A stretch of DNA of 37,995 nt from Acidimicrobiaceae bacterium (GCA_028820455.1 JAPPJC010000017.1:25784-63778), one strand, 5' to 3'; counted from the first letter of the stretch, positions 13,574 to 37,995 are shown. The notes: generated by a model not told the origin, from the sequence alone. Made by a program: numbers and translations.

Positions 13574-15916
13574 GTGATTGTTGAGTCGTTGACAGGAAAG
13601 CGAATACTGATAACAGGAGCTACCGGGTTCCTGGGCACGGCACTAGTGGAACGCTTGTTGCGTTGCATACCCGAATGTGAGCTGGTATTGATGGTGCGCC
13701 CTGGAAGACATGGCGCAACCGAGCGTGTGAAGCGAGACATTTTACGAAACGAAGCGTTCAAACAACTCCGCGTTGCCTGCTCACAAACCGATGAAACTTT
13801 TGAAGAAACGATCAAGAGACGGATTCATGCTGTGGCTGGTGATGTCAGCATCGACGGACTCGGTCTTGACAGTGCGGGACGAGATTTGCTCGCTAGTTGT
13901 GATATCGCAATTCACGCGGCGGCTACTGTCAGTTTCGACTCAGCTTTAGACGACGCAGTAGAAGTCAACCTGCTTGGACCGAAACGGATAGCCGATGTCT
14001 TGCGAGAAGTCTGTTCACCAGCTCATCTTGTCTGCGTGTCAACCTGTTATGTGGCCGGCAACCAACGCGGTGCAGCTTACGAACAACTTATCACCGAATC
14101 CCCCTTTTTTGTCAAGGTAGACTGGCAGTACGAAGTAACTTGTGCACGTCAAGCACGTAACAACGCAGAACAAAACAGCCGTCTACCCAAACGCCTCGCC
14201 TCTTTCAAGGCTCAAGCACGGCGTGAACTAGGTGCAGCTGGAAGACCTGCTCTAGCAAACAAAACAGAAAGCCTACGCCAGCGTTGGGTTAAAGACACTA
14301 TGGTTAAAGCAGGTCGAGCCCGTGCCAGCAGTCTCGGCTATCCAGATGCGTACGCTTTCACTAAAGCTTTAGGCGAACAAGCACTTATCGAAACAAGAGA
14401 TGGCCTGCCTATCAGTATTGTTCGGCCATCTATAATCGAATCCGCCTTGGTTGAGCCTCGCCCCGGGTGGATTAGAGGTTTTCGCATGGCTGAACCGGTG
14501 ATCGCAGCCTATGCTCGAGGCTTGCTCAAAGAATTCCCTGGTGTACCGGAAGGAATCATCGATGTCGTCCCAGTTGATCTCGTGGTATCCGCAATTCTGG
14601 CTGTAGCAGCTAGAGGGCCGCTTCATACCGGTCCTGATGTGACACAAATAGCCAGTGGATCCATTAATCCACTCAAATATGCACAACTTGTGGACTTAGT
14701 GCGTAACTGGTTCATCAAACATCCCGTCTACGATGAACATGATCAACCCATAAGCGTGCCAGAATGGTCATTCCCCGGACGTGGAAGAGTTACCAAACAA
14801 CTAAAAAAAGTTCAGCTTCTATTGGAAACCGCAGACCGTGTCTTGACTTTACTGCCACTGCGAGGACGCTACGCAGAGATGAGTGTCAACCTGGACGAAC
14901 AGCGCGCTCTTTTGGAAAGGGCGAAGGAATATGTGGAACTCTACGGTGCTTACGCAGAATGCGAAGCCATCTACCAGCTTGACCGGTTAATGGAGTTATG
15001 GGAAACATTGGACAGTGAAGACCGAGCTAATTTTTGTTTTCACCCTTCGGTGATCAACTGGTCAAACTACGTGCAGAACATCCACTTACCATCCATGGTC
15101 GTTCAAGCTCGTTTGAAAATGACCGCCAACACTCACAGCAAAAAATCTCACTCTCACACAGATCGCAGGCGACTTCAAGTGATGAGTCCACAGCGCCATC
15201 TTGCGGTTTTCGATCTTGAAAACACGTTGATCGCATCTAATGTAGTAGCCAGTTACGCCTGGTTAGCCACACGTGAACTCGACGATTTGGAACGTGTCGT
15301 GTTCACCATCAAAGCACTTAAAGAAATACCCCGGCTGCTGGCTTTAGATCGTAAAGATCGCAGTGACTTCCTCCGCTACTTTTATCGTCGTTTTGAAAAA
15401 GCACCTGTCGATTTGATAGCAACCGAATGCCGCGAAATGCTTAGTGACTTGCTTATCAAAAAATCTTTTCCACAAGGATTGCGGCGAGTGCGCGAACACC
15501 GTCAAGCAGGCCATACCACTCTGCTTATCACTGGTGCGCTGGACTTTGTAGTAGAGCCTTTGCGTCCACTTTTCAACCATGTGATCGCAGCGGAAATGGA
15601 TGTCAAGGATGGCTGTTATAACGGCCACCTACTAAGTGCTCCACCTACAGGGGAGTCTCGCTATCAGGTGCTTTTGGAGTTTGCGCGTGACCACAACTGT
15701 GACCTGAGAGAATCCGTGGCATACGCGGATAGCACATCCGACTTGCCAATGCTGGAGGCAGTGGGTTTTCCGGTGGCTGTCAATCCTGAAATCAAACTAG
15801 CATCATTAGCCCGGCGCAGAGGATGGTTGATAGAGAATTGGTCTACAAGCGCAGGAACACCGAATAAGCTCATACCTCTAGCTCCAAGACAAAAACACCG
15901 CACGTGTCACAGCTAG
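13574..15916 (+). CDS. fusion: NAD(P)-dependent fatty acyl reductase-like domain + HAD-IB phosphatase-like domain
   Basis: A 780-residue two-domain protein. The N-terminal half (about 1-480) is a Rossmann reductase of the fatty acyl-CoA reductase / thioester reductase type, with GATGFLG (15-21), an HAAATVSF segment and the catalytic pair Tyr260/Lys264 (YAFTK), then a male-sterility-like C-terminal part. After a His/Ser/Lys-rich linker (about 516-534), residues 541-780 are a HAD-IB domain with motif I DLENTL (Asp547; Glu549 in place of the usual second Asp), motif II TGALDF and motif IV ADSTSDLPML (Asp719/Asp723). The likely chemistry is acyl-CoA reduction coupled to a phosphatase; substrates are unknown. 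The drawn start is GTG, but AGGAG (13552-13556) fits an in-frame ATT at 13565 better. The LarA-like and PlsC-type genes follow on the same strand. Confidence 0.82.
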   Translation: MIVESLTGKRILITGATGFLGTALVERLLRCIPECELVLMVRPGRHGATERVKRDILRNEAFKQLRVACSQTDETFEETIKRRIHAVAGDVSIDGLGLDSAGRDLLASCDIAIHAAATVSFDSALDDAVEVNLLGPKRIADVLREVCSPAHLVCVSTCYVAGNQRGAAYEQLITESPFFVKVDWQYEVTCARQARNNAEQNSRLPKRLASFKAQARRELGAAGRPALANKTESLRQRWVKDTMVKAGRARASSLGYPDAYAFTKALGEQALIETRDGLPISIVRPSIIESALVEPRPGWIRGFRMAEPVIAAYARGLLKEFPGVPEGIIDVVPVDLVVSAILAVAARGPLHTGPDVTQIASGSINPLKYAQLVDLVRNWFIKHPVYDEHDQPISVPEWSFPGRGRVTKQLKKVQLLLETADRVLTLLPLRGRYAEMSVNLDEQRALLERAKEYVELYGAYAECEAIYQLDRLMELWETLDSEDRANFCFHPSVINWSNYVQNIHLPSMVVQARLKMTANTHSKKSHSHTDRRRLQVMSPQRHLAVFDLENTLIASNVVASYAWLATRELDDLERVVFTIKALKEIPRLLALDRKDRSDFLRYFYRRFEKAPVDLIATECREMLSDLLIKKSFPQGLRRVREHRQAGHTTLLITGALDFVVEPLRPLFNHVIAAEMDVKDGCYNGHLLSAPPTGESRYQVLLEFARDHNCDLRESVAYADSTSDLPMLEAVGFPVAVNPEIKLASLARRRGWLIENWSTSAGTPNKLIPLAPRQKHRTCHS

Positions 15917-15987
15917 CGTACCCGTTTGTTTCGAACATAAACGAACAAACCAAACCCCCAGACAAAAACACCGCACGTGTCAGCTAG
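15887..15987. repeat. direct repeat of the 3' end of the acyl reductase-HAD gene, with hairpin
   Basis: agacaaaaacaccgcacgtg and the following bases to gctag occur at 15887-15916, including the stop codon of the fusion gene, and again at 15960-15987 with a 2-bp deletion. Between them lies an inverted repeat (GTTTGTT.CG / CGAACAAAC, 15924-15950) that could form a weak terminator hairpin. The rest of 15988-16148 holds no recognisable element apart from a weak AAGGA before the next gene. Confidence 0.8.
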
Positions 15988-16148
15988 TATCTACCATGAC
16001 ATTGCCTCATCGAACTGTCTCATGAACCGCACGAATCACACTGAGCCACACCGGGTCATAGCCGATAGAACCCCGAACAAAAGATCCATCTCGCACTTTA
16101 CTACAATTCACTCTTACCATACTTCTACTGTAAGGACTGCATAATTCC

Positions 16149-17762
16149 ATGGCCACGCAACACCGTCACACTCCACGCCCGGGTTTAGTGTTGGAGGTGG
16201 ATCGCTCCACCCCACCGGTGATGTTCCACCACGGTGAAGGTTTCCGTTTAGAGAAACTTCCCCCAGGACGTAGTCGCGTGATCTACCCTGCAGAACCGAA
16301 AACAGGAATAGCAGACCCGGACAATGCCATCCGTCAGGCACTCCTGAACCCCATCGATGAAGACCCTCTGCCTTCATTGATGCGGCCGAGCATGCGGCTT
16401 ACCATTGCTTTTGACGATCTTTCGCTGCCGCTGCCTCCGATGCGTCGCCCGGACATTCGCCAGAGAATCATTGAGCAAGTTTTGGACATAGCAGCCGAAG
16501 CAGGAGTAGATGACGTGCATCTGATAGCTGCTTTGGCGTTACACCGCCGTATGACAGAAAACGAGTTGCGTCACGCTTTGGGTGACCGTGTTTATGATGC
16601 TTTCGCTCCACAAGGTGCTCTTTACAACCACGATGCCGAAGACTCTCATGGGATGGTCACCTTAGGCTACACTTCACATGATGAGATAGTGAGAATGAAC
16701 CGCCGTGCTGCTGAAAGCGACCTACTGGTCTACGTGAATATCAATCTGGTGTCGATGGATGGCGGATGGAAATCAACGGCCACCGGTTTGGCAGACTACC
16801 AGGCACTGCGACACCATCACAATGTTGCCGCCCTGCAACAATCCCGTTCATTCATGGATAGGCACCGTTCGGAACTTCACCACTCGAATTGGAGGCAAGG
16901 TGCCGTGATAGATGCCCACGGCCCACGTATTTTCCAAATCGAAACCACCGTCAACAACAACACTTTCGGCCGTTCCGGGCCTTTAGCAGTTTTGCAGAAA
17001 CGTGAATGGGAGTGGACATTCAAAGACCGTGTGTCTTGCATGGCTATGTCGAAATCCCTTAAAGTGACGCCCCCAGCGATACAGCGTGCCATATTCCAGG
17101 CTTGGCGTGCTCCTTACGAACTAACTTCCGTACAAGCTGGAGCAGTTGAAGCTGTACATGAACGCACCACCGAGAACGTCTTGGCGCAGCATCTAGTGCC
17201 GGTAGAAGGACAAACAGACGTAGTGACTATGGGGCTTCCCTACATATGTCCATACAACGTTAACTCAACCATGAATCCAATCCTGGTTATGTGTCTTGGG
17301 CTAGGATATTTCTTCAATCTTTACCGTGGTAAGCCAGTGGTACGCCCAGGAGGGGTGGCCATTATGAGCCACCCGACTCGTCCGGAGTTCCACCCTGTTC
17401 ATCATCCCAGCTATATCGACTTTTTCGAACAGCTGCTAGCAGAAACCACCGATCCCGCTGAACTTGAAGCCAAATACGAGCAGCAGTTCGCGACAGATGA
17501 ATGGTATATACATCTATACCGTAACAGCTACGCTTACCATGGCGTTCATCCTTTTTACATGTGGTACTGGGGGGCACACGCCTTGCAGCATTTGGGTCGT
17601 GTGATAATCGTGGGTGGTGACACCGCAGCTGTCAGAAGGCTTGGGTTCCAACCAGCTTCCACTTTGGCAGACGCTTTGGAGATGGCAGCCGATGTGGTGG
17701 GGTCACAACCAACTATAACCCATCTACACAACCCTCCGATTCTTATGACAGACATGGCCTAA
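16149..17762 (+). CDS. LarA-like protein (DUF2088, nickel-pincer racemase superfamily)
   Basis: A 537-residue protein of the lactate racemase (LarA) superfamily. It has the N-terminal signature FDDLSLPLPPM (about 88-98), ALALHRRMTENELRHALGD with a His at the LarA catalytic position (His132), the HDAED segment, and GGWKS (Lys208) where LarA carries the lysine linked to its nickel-pincer cofactor. It is about 100 residues longer than typical LarA and lacks the usual PHxxAGxSGG form (SMDGGWKS here). LarA-type proteins racemise or epimerise 2-hydroxyacids; the substrate is unknown and no larB, larC or larE cofactor gene is in the window. It lies between the acyl reductase fusion and a PlsC-type gene, only 18 bp from the latter, which suggests a shared pathway. 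Confidence 0.75.
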   Translation: MATQHRHTPRPGLVLEVDRSTPPVMFHHGEGFRLEKLPPGRSRVIYPAEPKTGIADPDNAIRQALLNPIDEDPLPSLMRPSMRLTIAFDDLSLPLPPMRRPDIRQRIIEQVLDIAAEAGVDDVHLIAALALHRRMTENELRHALGDRVYDAFAPQGALYNHDAEDSHGMVTLGYTSHDEIVRMNRRAAESDLLVYVNINLVSMDGGWKSTATGLADYQALRHHHNVAALQQSRSFMDRHRSELHHSNWRQGAVIDAHGPRIFQIETTVNNNTFGRSGPLAVLQKREWEWTFKDRVSCMAMSKSLKVTPPAIQRAIFQAWRAPYELTSVQAGAVEAVHERTTENVLAQHLVPVEGQTDVVTMGLPYICPYNVNSTMNPILVMCLGLGYFFNLYRGKPVVRPGGVAIMSHPTRPEFHPVHHPSYIDFFEQLLAETTDPAELEAKYEQQFATDEWYIHLYRNSYAYHGVHPFYMWYWGAHALQHLGRVIIVGGDTAAVRRLGFQPASTLADALEMAADVVGSQPTITHLHNPPILMTDMA

Positions 17763-17780
17763 ACCTTCATTGGAACTGCT

Positions 17781-18671
17781 ATGAAAAAGATTTACAGGTT
17801 TTTACTGCGAGCCCCTGCCACGCCTGAAGGCGTGGAACCTCTCCCTCCTCAAAAACGTGTGGGAATGCATTTCAACACCAGCTGGGCTAGACGCTGGCCA
17901 GCACGCGTTGGCCGTTTCGCAGGACTTGAAGGCCCTTTAAGAGTCGCTGTCTGGTTGTTCGCAACCCCTAACCGTAGAGGCCTGGAAAACCTTGATAAAG
18001 TGAAGGGGCCCGTGATATTCGTGGCCAACCATCATAGCCATGCAGACACCCCTTTGTTACTCATTTCACTGCCTATGAAGATACGACATAAAACAGCAGT
18101 CGCTGCTGCGTCCGACTATTTTTTTAAAAACAAGATAACAGGCGTTGTATCCGCGTTGTTCATCGGGGCAATTCCTGTGGACAGAAAGCGAGTGGGACGC
18201 CAATCTGCCAAATTGTCGGCTGAGCTTCTCGCTGAGGGATGGAATCTGTTAATCTACCCTGAAGGAGGGCGTAGTCCCGACGGTTGGGGTCAATCATTTC
18301 GTGGCGGGGCTGCCTATCTATCAAAACGTTGTAACACACCCATACTACCAATACATCTGTCTGGCACAGACCGGGTTTTACGCAAGAATACTTTCATACC
18401 CCGCCCGGCTATCACCACAGCAACTTTTGGTAAACCCATATACCCCTCAACAGAAGAGAGATCAGCCAAATTAGCTTTACGAGTGGAAGAAGCTGTGAAC
18501 GCACTAGCAGACGAGATTCGAACTGATTGGTATACTGCCCGGAAGCGAGCTCACGGACGCCAGAATCCAACTCTTACCGGGCCAGCGGTAAGCGAATGGC
18601 GTAGAGCTTGGATAAGAGGCGACCAATCCCGAAAAAATAAACGACCCAAAAATGCTTGGCCGGTAATTTAG
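17781..18671 (+). CDS. PlsC-type 1-acylglycerol-3-phosphate acyltransferase
   Basis: A 296-residue lysophospholipid acyltransferase family protein. Block I NHHSHAD gives the H-x4-D catalytic pair (His84, Asp89); block II is at IPVDRKRVGR (about 131-140); block III is YPEGGRSPDG (about 159-168), a variant of EGTRS; and block IV is LPIHLSG. These enzymes move an acyl chain from acyl-CoA or acyl-ACP to a lysophosphatidate or related acceptor at the membrane. There is no strong transmembrane helix beyond hydrophobic stretches, and the C-terminus is basic. It follows the LarA-like gene by 18 bp, so the two are probably co-transcribed. The acceptor lipid is not known. Confidence 0.88.
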   Translation: MKKIYRFLLRAPATPEGVEPLPPQKRVGMHFNTSWARRWPARVGRFAGLEGPLRVAVWLFATPNRRGLENLDKVKGPVIFVANHHSHADTPLLLISLPMKIRHKTAVAAASDYFFKNKITGVVSALFIGAIPVDRKRVGRQSAKLSAELLAEGWNLLIYPEGGRSPDGWGQSFRGGAAYLSKRCNTPILPIHLSGTDRVLRKNTFIPRPAITTATFGKPIYPSTEERSAKLALRVEEAVNALADEIRTDWYTARKRAHGRQNPTLTGPAVSEWRRAWIRGDQSRKNKRPKNAWPVI

Positions 18672-34853: not shown

Positions 34854-35288
34854 ATGGAGTTACCTGATATAAAGCTGCCCAGACCAATGGATTTACTGCC
34901 TCACCGGGAGCCTTTTCTGTTTCTGGATGAGGTGACTTTGCTTGTTCCTGGTAAGGAAGCTGCGGGTTACTGGCAGCTAACTGATGATCAGCCATTTTTT
35001 GCTGGTCATTTCCCCGGGCGTCCGATCTTGCCAGGTGTACTGATATGTGAGGCAATAGCCCAACTGGGAGCAGTAGCCGTGTTGGCCGATGAGCGTTATG
35101 CAGGGCGTCTGCCACTGTTTGGTGGACTGAACAAGGCACGATTCAGACGGCAAGTAGTTCCTGGTGACAAATTGGAAATGCACGTAAATATGGTTCGCCT
35201 CGGATCAAGAGGTGGAAAAGGTATAGGCGTAGCAAAAGTCGGCAATCGTGTAGCTGCTGAATGCGAAATGATGTTCATCATCATGTGA
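34854..35288 (+). CDS. fabZ: 3-hydroxyacyl-ACP dehydratase (FabZ)
   Basis: A 144-residue hot-dog fold enzyme that dehydrates 3-hydroxyacyl-ACP in type II fatty acid synthesis. The catalytic pair is His52 (GHFPGRPILPG) and Glu66 (CEAIAQ), and MDLLPHREPFLFLDEV is the family N-terminus; the 11 residues before it are optional, with an in-frame ATG at residue 12. It is convergent with fabF, only 35 bp apart, and close to acpP, forming a fatty acid group. No clear Shine-Dalgarno is seen. Nothing in the motifs is abnormal. Confidence 0.95.
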   Translation: MELPDIKLPRPMDLLPHREPFLFLDEVTLLVPGKEAAGYWQLTDDQPFFAGHFPGRPILPGVLICEAIAQLGAVAVLADERYAGRLPLFGGLNKARFRRQVVPGDKLEMHVNMVRLGSRGGKGIGVAKVGNRVAAECEMMFIIM

Positions 35289-35323
35289 ACAGTCTCATAC
35301 CAAGGTCAAGTTGATGCCATGCT

Positions 35324-36544
35324 TCATCTCAGGTTATCAGGGGGGCCGATTACAAGGGTTCCGTTGTGGCCGCCAAATCCAAATGAGTTAGAGATGGAAA
35401 TACCGGGCTCCCAATGCATCGGTTCGTCTGTTACGAGTCTGATAGGAGGCAACTGCGGATCGAACCTATTGATCCCCGTTGTCGGTGGGATCAGCTTCTT
35501 TTGTATGGATAACACCACTGCAGCCGCTTCTAAAGCACCAGCCGCGCCTAAAGCATGGCCTGTTACCCCTTTAATCGAAGTGACTACCGGGCCAGGTGAA
35601 ACACCGAACAACCTTGTCAACGCTTCAGCTTCGGCTTCATCGTTCAAAGGAGTGGAAGTGCCGTGTGCGTTAACGTGAACAACCTCGTCAGGCTGCACAC
35701 TAGCATCATCGAGAGCTAGTCGCATACATTCAAATGCGCCTCTACCCCCTGGAGCAGGTGCCGTGATATTATGCGCATCAGCTGTGGATGCTGAGCCTAG
35801 AATCTCGGCCAAAATCCTGGCTTCACGGTCAACAGCATGATTCCGCTCTTCAAGAACTAATACTGCCGCACCTTCAGCCATGACAAAACCATCACGACCT
35901 ATATCAAAAGGCCTGCTCATACCACTAGACGACAAAGCAGTCATATTGGCAAAACCAGCCACAGCCGTAGGCGTAAAAGGAGCTTCAGACCCACCCGCCA
36001 ATACTACATCACACCGACCATCAGCTATGAGGCGAGCCCCAGCAGAAATGGCATGCGTACCGGCCGCACAAGCTGTTACCACACTCTCAGACGGACCTTT
36101 CATTCCATAACGCATCGACACGGCAGCACTTGCAGCATTGGACATCATCATCGGCACCAAAAATGGCGACACACGACGAGGCCCTCTAGTAGCTAGAACT
36201 TTGATCTCACCTTCAAGCGTGGCAATGCCTCCGACTCCTGTGCCGATTAGAGTTCCGCAACGGCTGGGATCAGCATCCAACTCACCAGTCTGCGCTATAG
36301 CTTCTGCTGCAGCAGCTATAGCGAACTGAGTAAAACGATCAGCTCTACGAGCTTCTTTCGGATTGCTGTAGTATCCAGCTGCATCAAACCCAGTAATCCG
36401 ACGCTCACCCACCAGTGCAGGGCCACACAAACCATCAAAATAATCTTCAACACCAATTCCAACAGCTGATACCACCCCAACACCGGTAACAGCCACTCGC
36501 TGGCGATTTCTTCTATCTTCAAAAACCGGTTGGCGGTTAACCAT
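35324..36544 (-). CDS. fabF: beta-ketoacyl-ACP synthase II (FabF)
   Basis: A 406-residue condensing enzyme that extends acyl chains with malonyl-ACP. The Cys-His-His triad is Cys159 (VVTACAAGTHAIS), His294 (NAHGTSTPLND) and His330 (GVTGHALGAAGALEA). The GFGGHNGTLVI C-terminus is typical. It starts 42 bp after acpP on the same strand, the common acpP-fabF arrangement, so the two are most likely one operon. The first 15 residues (NRQPVFEDRRNRQ) are extra relative to the usual start at RVAVTGVG. It is convergent with fabZ. Confidence 0.95.
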   Translation of the reverse strand: MVNRQPVFEDRRNRQRVAVTGVGVVSAVGIGVEDYFDGLCGPALVGERRITGFDAAGYYSNPKEARRADRFTQFAIAAAAEAIAQTGELDADPSRCGTLIGTGVGGIATLEGEIKVLATRGPRRVSPFLVPMMMSNAASAAVSMRYGMKGPSESVVTACAAGTHAISAGARLIADGRCDVVLAGGSEAPFTPTAVAGFANMTALSSSGMSRPFDIGRDGFVMAEGAAVLVLEERNHAVDREARILAEILGSASTADAHNITAPAPGGRGAFECMRLALDDASVQPDEVVHVNAHGTSTPLNDEAEAEALTRLFGVSPGPVVTSIKGVTGHALGAAGALEAAAVVLSIQKKLIPPTTGINRFDPQLPPIRLVTDEPMHWEPGISISNSFGFGGHNGTLVIGPPDNLR

Positions 36545-36586
36545 TTCAGTAACTCTTTTTTGGTAGCCCTCTTCTTCGCCAACCCT

Positions 36587-36841
36587 TTAAAGTTTCGAAA
36601 CAATCAAGTTGTACGCCGCTGAAACCGTTGTTACTCCCTCGAGTTCTTCTTCATCAATACCAACATCAAATTCTTCCTCAAGAGTCATTACCAACTCAAC
36701 AATGTCCAGACTGTCAGCTTCAAGGTCCTCAGCAAAGTCGGCTTCAAGCACAATCCTTGATTCCTCTACTGCCAACACCTCCGCTGCACATTTTTTGAAA
36801 CGCTCGAAATTATCGCTGCTAGCTGAGTTATCTTGACTCAC
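36587..36841 (-). CDS. acpP: acyl carrier protein
   Basis: The phosphopantetheine-bearing carrier of fatty acid synthesis. With a GTG start at 36841 it is 84 residues, and Ser44 in DSLDIVELVM is the attachment site; the acidic helix LEEEFDVGIDEEEL follows. The ORF track gives 134 residues, but AAGGAG lies 6 nt before this GTG, whereas the upstream ATGs lack a Shine-Dalgarno and give a Cys-rich extension unlike any acyl carrier protein. It is followed by fabF after 42 bp on the same strand. Confidence 0.93.
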   Translation of the reverse strand: MSQDNSASSDNFERFKKCAAEVLAVEESRIVLEADFAEDLEADSLDIVELVMTLEEEFDVGIDEEELEGVTTVSAAYNLIVSKL

Positions 36842-37505
36842 AATGTTCTCCTTCATAATTTCGCATATAATCATGCAACTTATTGTCTTACAACTTTTAC
36901 AAACATTATTATCAATGTATTGTATAAAGGCACACGATACAGGCATACGGCGTACATCAAATAGCAACACTACTGTAGCAGCATCGTTCACCTCACGGTG
37001 ACCATCGTCGATCTTTATTGCAGTTCTAATATTTTAAAATCAAAATTGACCGCAGCTGCCTACGGGAAACTGTAATCGAACCGAAAGTGCAGACATAGGA
37101 TATCAAGATGCTATACTTTTGAGTATGAGGGGGTTGTCGATGAGTAGTGGACTATTGATGTGCAGTGTGGAAATTTAGTCATCTACAGTGTAGTCTGTGT
37201 ACGCAGGCTACACTCCTTCGTGCATATGAGTTCGCGGGAACTCAATCACACTATGGACCGTCTAACCATATGTAGCCTTCGTGCAATATGAGTTCGCACC
37301 TTTGCAGCTTCTTTATGAGAAACAGACTTGTAATCGCATAAGAAACAAACGTATAAGTCACAAGTTTTAGTATATGAGCAATGCAATAGATGATATTTGC
37401 ATGCCCTACCCACAACCATGCCCTACCTTGCAACAAAGAATACTTCAGCTTTGAAAACACTAAAAGCACAATGTGGTTCATAGCCCACGAGAGAATCCTA
37501 GAATT
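36842..37505. other. long intergenic region with short repeats
   Basis: About 660 bp with no convincing gene; the 76-residue minus ORF (37251-37481) lacks family features and a start signal. It holds a direct repeat, ccttcgtgca(a)tatgagttcgc, at 37215-37235 and 37276-37297, and an inverted pair agtgtag (37187-37193) / ctacact (37208-37214). Promoters for acpP (minus) and the lipoprotein (plus) must lie here, but none is clear. Confidence 0.7.
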
Positions 37506-37995
37506 ATGAAGTCACGAGTGGAATCACTGTCTCCGCGGATCATCACACTTTCCATTGGAAGCATACTAGTGGCAGTTGTTTGGACCATTGTCGCAACCAG
37601 CTGTAACGGTGACGAAACAAACCCGCCACCTAACTCGCCGACTAGCAGTGTTGCAACAACCACAAGCACCAACGGTAATAAAACGCCGAATCCAAGTGAT
37701 CCTAATCCAGGAATAGCAGATGAAGATTTTGAGGTTATTCGCATTGAAACAATATCAGCAGGTGAAAAACACACTTGCGCAATACGCACAGACGATAAAA
37801 TCATTTGTTGGGGCAGCAATTCCAATAGTCAAGTCGACGCGCCTACCGGAAGATTTACCGCAATATCAGCCGGAGGCCAACACACCTGCGCAATACGCAC
37901 AGACGAAACAATCGAATGCTGGGGCAACAACGCCGATAGACAAGTCGACGCGCCTACCGGAAGATTTACCGCAATATCAGCCGGAGGCCAACACA
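37506..37995 (+). CDS. RCC1-like repeat lipoprotein (partial, cut by window end)
   Basis: This open frame is not in the ORF track because it runs off the window. It starts ATG, with a signal segment (about 11-32) ending VATSC, where Cys33 is the likely lipidated residue, then an Asn/Pro/Thr-rich linker (about 34-72). From about residue 82 it has RCC1 / alpha-tubulin-suppressor-like repeats of 37 residues built on ISAGGQHTCAIRTD, CWGNN and QVDAPTGRFTA. Two repeats and the start of a third are visible, the DNA repeating at exactly 111 bp with long identical stretches. Such repeats form beta-propellers; an outward-facing, membrane-anchored propeller is likely. The binding partner is unknown. A weak GAGAG lies about 15 nt upstream. 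Confidence 0.85.
   Translation, partial: MKSRVESLSPRIITLSIGSILVAVVWTIVATSCNGDETNPPPNSPTSSVATTTSTNGNKTPNPSDPNPGIADEDFEVIRIETISAGEKHTCAIRTDDKIICWGSNSNSQVDAPTGRFTAISAGGQHTCAIRTDETIECWGNNADRQVDAPTGRFTAISAGGQH

Follow-up and report, generated by a model that had tools for sequence, protein, structure and literature searches.

The window analysed here is a stretch of 37,995 nucleotides from an Acidimicrobiaceae bacterium (GCA_028820455.1, JAPPJC010000017.1:25784-63778). Its positions 13574-18671 carry three genes on the plus strand encoding a fatty acyl-CoA reductase (FAR) fused to a HAD phosphatase, a LarA-like protein and a PlsC-type glycerolipid acyltransferase. The gene block had been proposed in an initial annotation, and its members and coordinates were confirmed by open reading frames and by Pfam and NCBIfam matches. 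These three genes are part of a conserved four-gene set of Actinomycetota, composed of the FAR-HAD fusion, a zinc-type (MDR) dehydrogenase, the LarA-like protein and either PlsC or PlsY. As judged from sequence, the probability is roughly 50% that this set makes a non-standard glycerolipid, most likely of the 1-O-alkyl (ether) type, without AGPS and with a hydride-transfer step performed by the LarA family member. Confidence is highest for the lipid role, lower for the ether product and lowest for the assignment of a particular step to the LarA-like protein.

Conservation was assessed in 61 sampled genomes from the order, in the gene neighbourhoods of 80 named Acidimicrobiia loci and in 297 Actinomycetota genomes. 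Within the order, the LarA-like protein occurs in 57 genomes and FAR-HAD and PlsC in 58 each; two genomes (G037 and G039) lack all three, and another (G058) is without LarA and FAR-HAD and shows only a weak PlsC match. In 79 of the 80 loci LarA is preceded by FAR-HAD in the same orientation, and in 77 it is followed by PlsC; every exception falls at a contig end. Since order and strand are identical in essentially all relatives examined, the association of these genes is far beyond chance. In the phylum sample LarA and FAR-HAD occur together in 73 genomes and are both missing from 217, with four genomes encoding only LarA and three only FAR-HAD (Fisher p=2e-60, not corrected for relatedness); in at least one genome with a single partner (G275), FAR-HAD is truncated by a contig end. 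The order FAR-HAD, dehydrogenase, LarA is kept in 33 distant loci, and PlsC follows in 18 of the 19 of these outside Rubrobacter. Neighbourhood and phylogenetic profiles are conserved phylum-wide, contrary to the refuting outcome named in the initial annotation (a missing neighbourhood or unrelated profiles). The most conserved member is LarA, with 50-66% identity across classes vs 37-48% for FAR-HAD and approximately 76-82% within the window's family. A second group of LarA proteins in Actinomycetota (loci L217-L219, L236 and L237), scoring lower against the LarAH14/15/16 model (~420-540 bits), has no FAR-HAD fusion beside it, a remote HAD-only match in L219 being all that was found; the association is therefore specific to the high-scoring LarA family. 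A tblastn search of plasmids returned only distant, ordinary LarA-type matches.

Outside the window's family, most lineages carry the fourth member of the set, the zinc-type dehydrogenase (PF00107/PF08240), between FAR-HAD and LarA; this is the arrangement in 24 of the 80 Acidimicrobiia loci, where a divergent TetR gene is often found upstream of the block. The NCBIfam models closest to the dehydrogenase, those for polyol and threonine dehydrogenases, were all matched below cut-off. In the window's family the gene is gone from the block and retained as an unlinked gene; the homologue of the window's genome (51% identity) is located outside the window, at positions 9796-10974 of contig C38 of genome G000. 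The neighbours of the dehydrogenase at its new location were searched in ten genomes, nine from the window's family and one other, and no lipid partner was conserved in those inspected. The usual position of the dehydrogenase corresponds in the window to the gap between FAR-HAD and LarA (15917-16148, no strand), 232 bp long; the spacing between LarA and PlsC is 18 bp. Two copies of a direct repeat of ~23 bp (agacaaaaacaccgcacgtgtca), offset by 73 bp, occupy 15887-15909 and 15960-15982; the first of them overlaps the 3' end of FAR-HAD, and the repeat may reflect a recent duplication.

The LarA-like protein (16149-17762, plus strand, 537 aa) matches Lar_N (E=4.4e-36) and belongs to the NCBIfam family LarAH_14_15_16 (NF052592), with 869 bits against a cut-off of 740. 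Its best PDB matches, by sequence and by fold, are LarA_Sp and LarA_Bw (9q2u/9q3k and 9q3j; PMC12611868), enzymes with a single catalytic histidine. In the AlphaFold2 model (mean pLDDT 80; weak at residues 365-375, 412-417 and 462-466) the closest fold is LarA_Sp (9q3k; TM 0.74/0.82). The residues Asp73, His115, Lys195, His211 and His401 of LarA_Sp (9q2u), whose roles were assigned previously (PMC12611868), align to D90, H132, K208, H224 and H467, which are invariant among 114 homologues. The signature of enzymes using the nickel-pincer nucleotide (NPN), defined in LarA by K184, H200, D72 and H108, is reproduced by K208 (cofactor-tethering), H224 (nickel ligand), D90 (ribose) and H132 (catalytic). 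The likeness to LarA_Sp and LarA_Bw thus comprises one catalytic histidine, the cofactor lysine and the nickel-ligand histidine; however, identity in the fold alignment is only ~20-22%, the position of LarA Arg75 is occupied by Lys in both enzymes and by an aliphatic residue or Cys in the LarA-like protein, and the genomic context of LarA_Sp and LarA_Bw suggests carbohydrate metabolism (PMC12611868).

The second catalytic histidine of LarA (H174) has no counterpart in any of the 114 homologues, which carry N-[ILV]-N at this site, and Arg75/Lys76, which serve the NPN phosphate and the substrate carboxylate, are also absent, position L93 being Leu, Ile or Cys in 113 of the 114 homologues and X in one. 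As the second histidine and the carboxylate-binding arginine are lacking, ordinary 2-hydroxyacid racemisation appears unlikely for this protein. The initial annotation had suggested that it could act on a hydroxyacyl or glycerate-type intermediate. Some unassigned LarAH groups lack His174 and Lys298 and may catalyze another hydride-mediated reaction (Desguin et al., 2020, PMC7583248); groups 14 and 15 were named among those devoid of His174 (PMC12611868), and a Frankia LarAH14 showed none of the activities assayed (PMC7583248). In the literature searched, LarAH14/15/16 proteins are without known function and without a link to a lipid operon. More generally, that literature, which did not include the Rubrobacter paper mentioned below, held no published link of LarA/DUF2088 to FAR, acyltransferases or ether lipids.

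The FAR-HAD fusion (13574-15916, plus strand, 780 aa) carries a FAR domain (NAD_binding_4, aa 13-341, nt 13610-14596, E=3.8e-55) and matches the fatty acyl-CoA reductase 7eoz of the PDB (E=1.8e-51). The Rossmann motif TGxxGFLG and the YxxxK motif (aa 260-264) are present and conserved in a tally of 107 homologues. The HAD-IB phosphatase domain (aa 543-741, nt 15200-15796; PF12710, E=1.4e-26) passes the TIGR01490 cut-off (106 bits vs 98.3) and retains motifs II and IV. Its motif I reads D547-x-E549-N-T, and in the same tally it is DxE in 75 Acidimicrobiia and 13 other-class homologues and DxD in 13 Rubrobacter and five other homologues. The acyltransferase (17781-18671, plus strand, 296 aa; PF01553, E=8e-18) has intact HX4D (NHHSHAD) and EGxRS-type motifs, both invariant among 95 homologues. 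In Rubrobacter loci a PlsY gene (above the TIGR00023 cut-off in the one representative scanned) lies directly upstream of FAR-HAD, and no PlsC was found near the FAR-HAD/LarA loci. FAR-HAD, dehydrogenase and LarA form a trio that has been joined by either of two unrelated glycerolipid acyltransferases.

The genes for synthesis of the nickel-pincer cofactor, larE, larB and larC, are located just downstream of PlsC in five distant loci (L201, L205, L206, L207 and L209), with NCBIfam scores in the representatives scanned of 268 vs a cut-off of 150 bits for LarE, 249 vs 175 for LarB and 164 vs 90 for LarC; by this linkage the gene set is tied to cofactor synthesis. LarC is present in 66 of the 77 bearers of LarA in the phylum sample. 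In the order sample LarB, LarC and LarE occur in 28, 27 and 29 genomes, respectively, and none of them was found in the window's genome, so that the use of NPN there is unexplained. The initial annotation had proposed to look for larB, larC and larE in the genomes that carry the block; these genes occur in most other bearers of the set and are missing from the window's own genome. Among the order relatives larB, larC and larE have been lost together many times without loss of the single LarA-like protein or its cofactor residues. Mapped onto the LarA tree, the presence and absence of larB, larC and larE imply at least ten changes, of which well-supported branches make five unavoidable. Nearly all genomes of the order that have LarA and lack larB, larC and larE encode no other Lar_N protein, and K208, H224 and H132 are unaltered in them. 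Genome incompleteness was rejected as a cause of these absences, three near-complete genomes (G008, G004 and G029; 1, 3 and 6 contigs) missing all three genes. Uptake of NPN or a precursor, or an NPN-independent function, would explain the losses.

The lipid role is proposed because FAR occurs together with PlsC, because PlsC is replaced by PlsY in Rubrobacter, and because the set resembles a known ether-lipid operon. In the elb operon of Myxococcus xanthus, ElbD carries FAR1-like and AGPAT-like domains, ElbB is a HAD protein, NAD-dependent oxidoreductases are also encoded, and the function of ElbC is unknown (PMC9131029). A FAR1-like domain, a HAD-superfamily protein, an AGPAT-like acyltransferase and NAD-dependent oxidoreductases are therefore common to both systems. 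The differences are that ElbD additionally carries acyl-CoA synthetase and carrier domains, that the elb oxidoreductases are of the epimerase/dehydratase family whereas that of the present set is an MDR dehydrogenase, and that LarA is not named among the Elb proteins.

A second setting is provided by the Rubrobacterales, in which, going by the title of a study, mixed ether/ester lipids predominate (Sinninghe Damste et al., 2023, cited in PMC11150832). FAR-HAD, dehydrogenase and LarA, accompanied by PlsY, are found in Rubrobacter radiotolerans, R. indicoceani, R. tropicus and, putatively, R. marinus; the sampled family in question (f44) is Rubrobacteraceae, with 100% plasmid contig matches to R. 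indicoceani, R. radiotolerans and R. tropicus. The abstract of the Rubrobacterales study reportedly describes a putative operon for 1-O-alkyl glycerol phosphate in five Rubrobacter species, which may correspond to the present set. Of the initial description of the block as a possible undescribed lipid pathway, the lipid part has gained ground, and "undescribed" is only partly safe.

While the statements at gene level are direct observations, the reactions of the set are all inferred from family membership, and may proceed as follows. FAR would convert acyl-CoA or acyl-ACP into a fatty aldehyde or alcohol, the polyol-type dehydrogenase and the LarA-like protein would act as redox enzymes on the three-carbon glycerol-phosphate backbone, the HAD domain would remove phosphate and PlsC or PlsY would attach an acyl chain. 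The LarA-like protein is predicted to transfer a hydride to NPN by means of its single catalytic histidine. More speculatively, the C2 hydroxyl could be transiently oxidised, which would activate C1 and allow an ester to be swapped for a fatty alcohol, a counterpart of the action of AGPS on dihydroxyacetone phosphate. It is only tentatively suggested that the LarA-family nickel-pincer enzyme performs such a hidden-redox step or ether-forming exchange in an AGPS-independent ether-lipid pathway of Actinomycetota, with many Acidimicrobiia having lost larB, larC and larE and obtaining the cofactor from outside.

The FAD-oxidase_C domain of AGPS (PF02913), found in 11 of 14 control genomes, is absent from the window's genome, which hence has no recognisable AGPS. 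Several observations weigh against the ether-lipid proposal. That genome is 91.75% complete, so the absence of AGPS is not absolute, and the search for it covered this one bearer of the set. Of the 57 genomes of the order with LarA, 28 (the window's among them) have no larB, larC or larE. DxD is expected in motif I of HAD-IB phosphatases, and all sampled Acidimicrobiia have DxE. No acyl-CoA ligase/synthetase or carrier domain such as those of ElbD was detected in the 780-aa fusion by Pfam and NCBIfam scans, no lipid data were found for any Acidimicrobiia, and the enzyme classes of the set could also serve the synthesis of fatty alcohols, wax esters or diol lipids.

A pathway for fatty alcohols, wax esters or other neutral lipids, in which the alcohols made by FAR are esterified by the PlsC-type enzyme, the role of the LarA-like protein being to provide or recycle a small hydroxyacid, fits the chemistry of a reductase paired with an acyltransferase. 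However, the acyltransferases of the set are of glycerophosphate types (PlsC with HX4D/EGxRS motifs, PlsY in Rubrobacter) and not wax-ester synthases, and the HAD phosphatase and polyol-type dehydrogenase would be better suited to a phosphorylated polyol, which makes this pathway unlikely. Also quite improbable is the synthesis of 2-hydroxyacyl or 1,2-diol lipids, where the LarA-like protein would invert or oxidise a long-chain 2-hydroxy acid and FAR would reduce it to a 1,2-diol to be acylated. Although characterised members of the LarA superfamily act on 2-hydroxy acids (PMC7583248, PMC11770544) and FAR could produce the diol, this option is opposed by the altered arginine position and missing second histidine of the LarA-like protein and by the inactivity of the Frankia LarAH14 in the assays mentioned above. 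A coincidental housekeeping cluster, kept by slow genome rearrangement, would agree with the vertical inheritance seen in the order and with the proximity of murF and ddl in many loci. Plain housekeeping synteny was rejected because the block order is kept where the flanks differ, persisting in other classes, in which murF, ddl and aconitase are missing from the neighbourhood; moreover, the genes of the set are present or absent together, and this explanation is considered highly improbable.

It is possible, if doubtful, that the LarA-like protein operates without the nickel-pincer cofactor, using another cofactor or having a structural role, which would be compatible with a lipid function of the set. 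The recurrent losses of larB, larC and larE, together with the high identity that the protein keeps within the window's family despite them, argue for this possibility, but uptake of NPN or a precursor explains the losses equally well. The linkage of larE, larB and larC to the block in distant loci, the frequency of LarC among bearers and the invariance of K208, H224 and H132 even where these genes are missing all argue for NPN use. If the proposed ether-lipid pathway with a LarA-family hydride-transfer step is correct, it would represent the first non-hydroxyacid and the first membrane-lipid role for the nickel-pincer cofactor, which direct linkage of larE, larB and larC ties to lipid genes, and would give a first concrete functional setting to a LarA subfamily without known reaction. 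Likewise, the ether lipids of Rubrobacterales and the unknown lipids of the widespread Acidimicrobiia would gain a candidate gene set. The repeated loss of cofactor synthesis next to an intact cofactor site poses a puzzle, pointing either to cofactor sharing between microbes or to a LarA protein that works otherwise.

Promoter and terminator scans of the block gave scores no better than those of shuffled sequence. Elsewhere in the window, genes of ordinary fatty-acid synthesis, namely fabZ and those for a FabF-like ketosynthase and an acyl carrier protein, are located at 34854-36991, ~16 kb downstream of the block. A run of C/G homopolymers at the very start (1-60) is suggestive of an assembly artefact or a low-complexity join, and at the other end (37473-37995) the window cuts off a probable secreted protein with RCC1-like repeats, of which the start is included.

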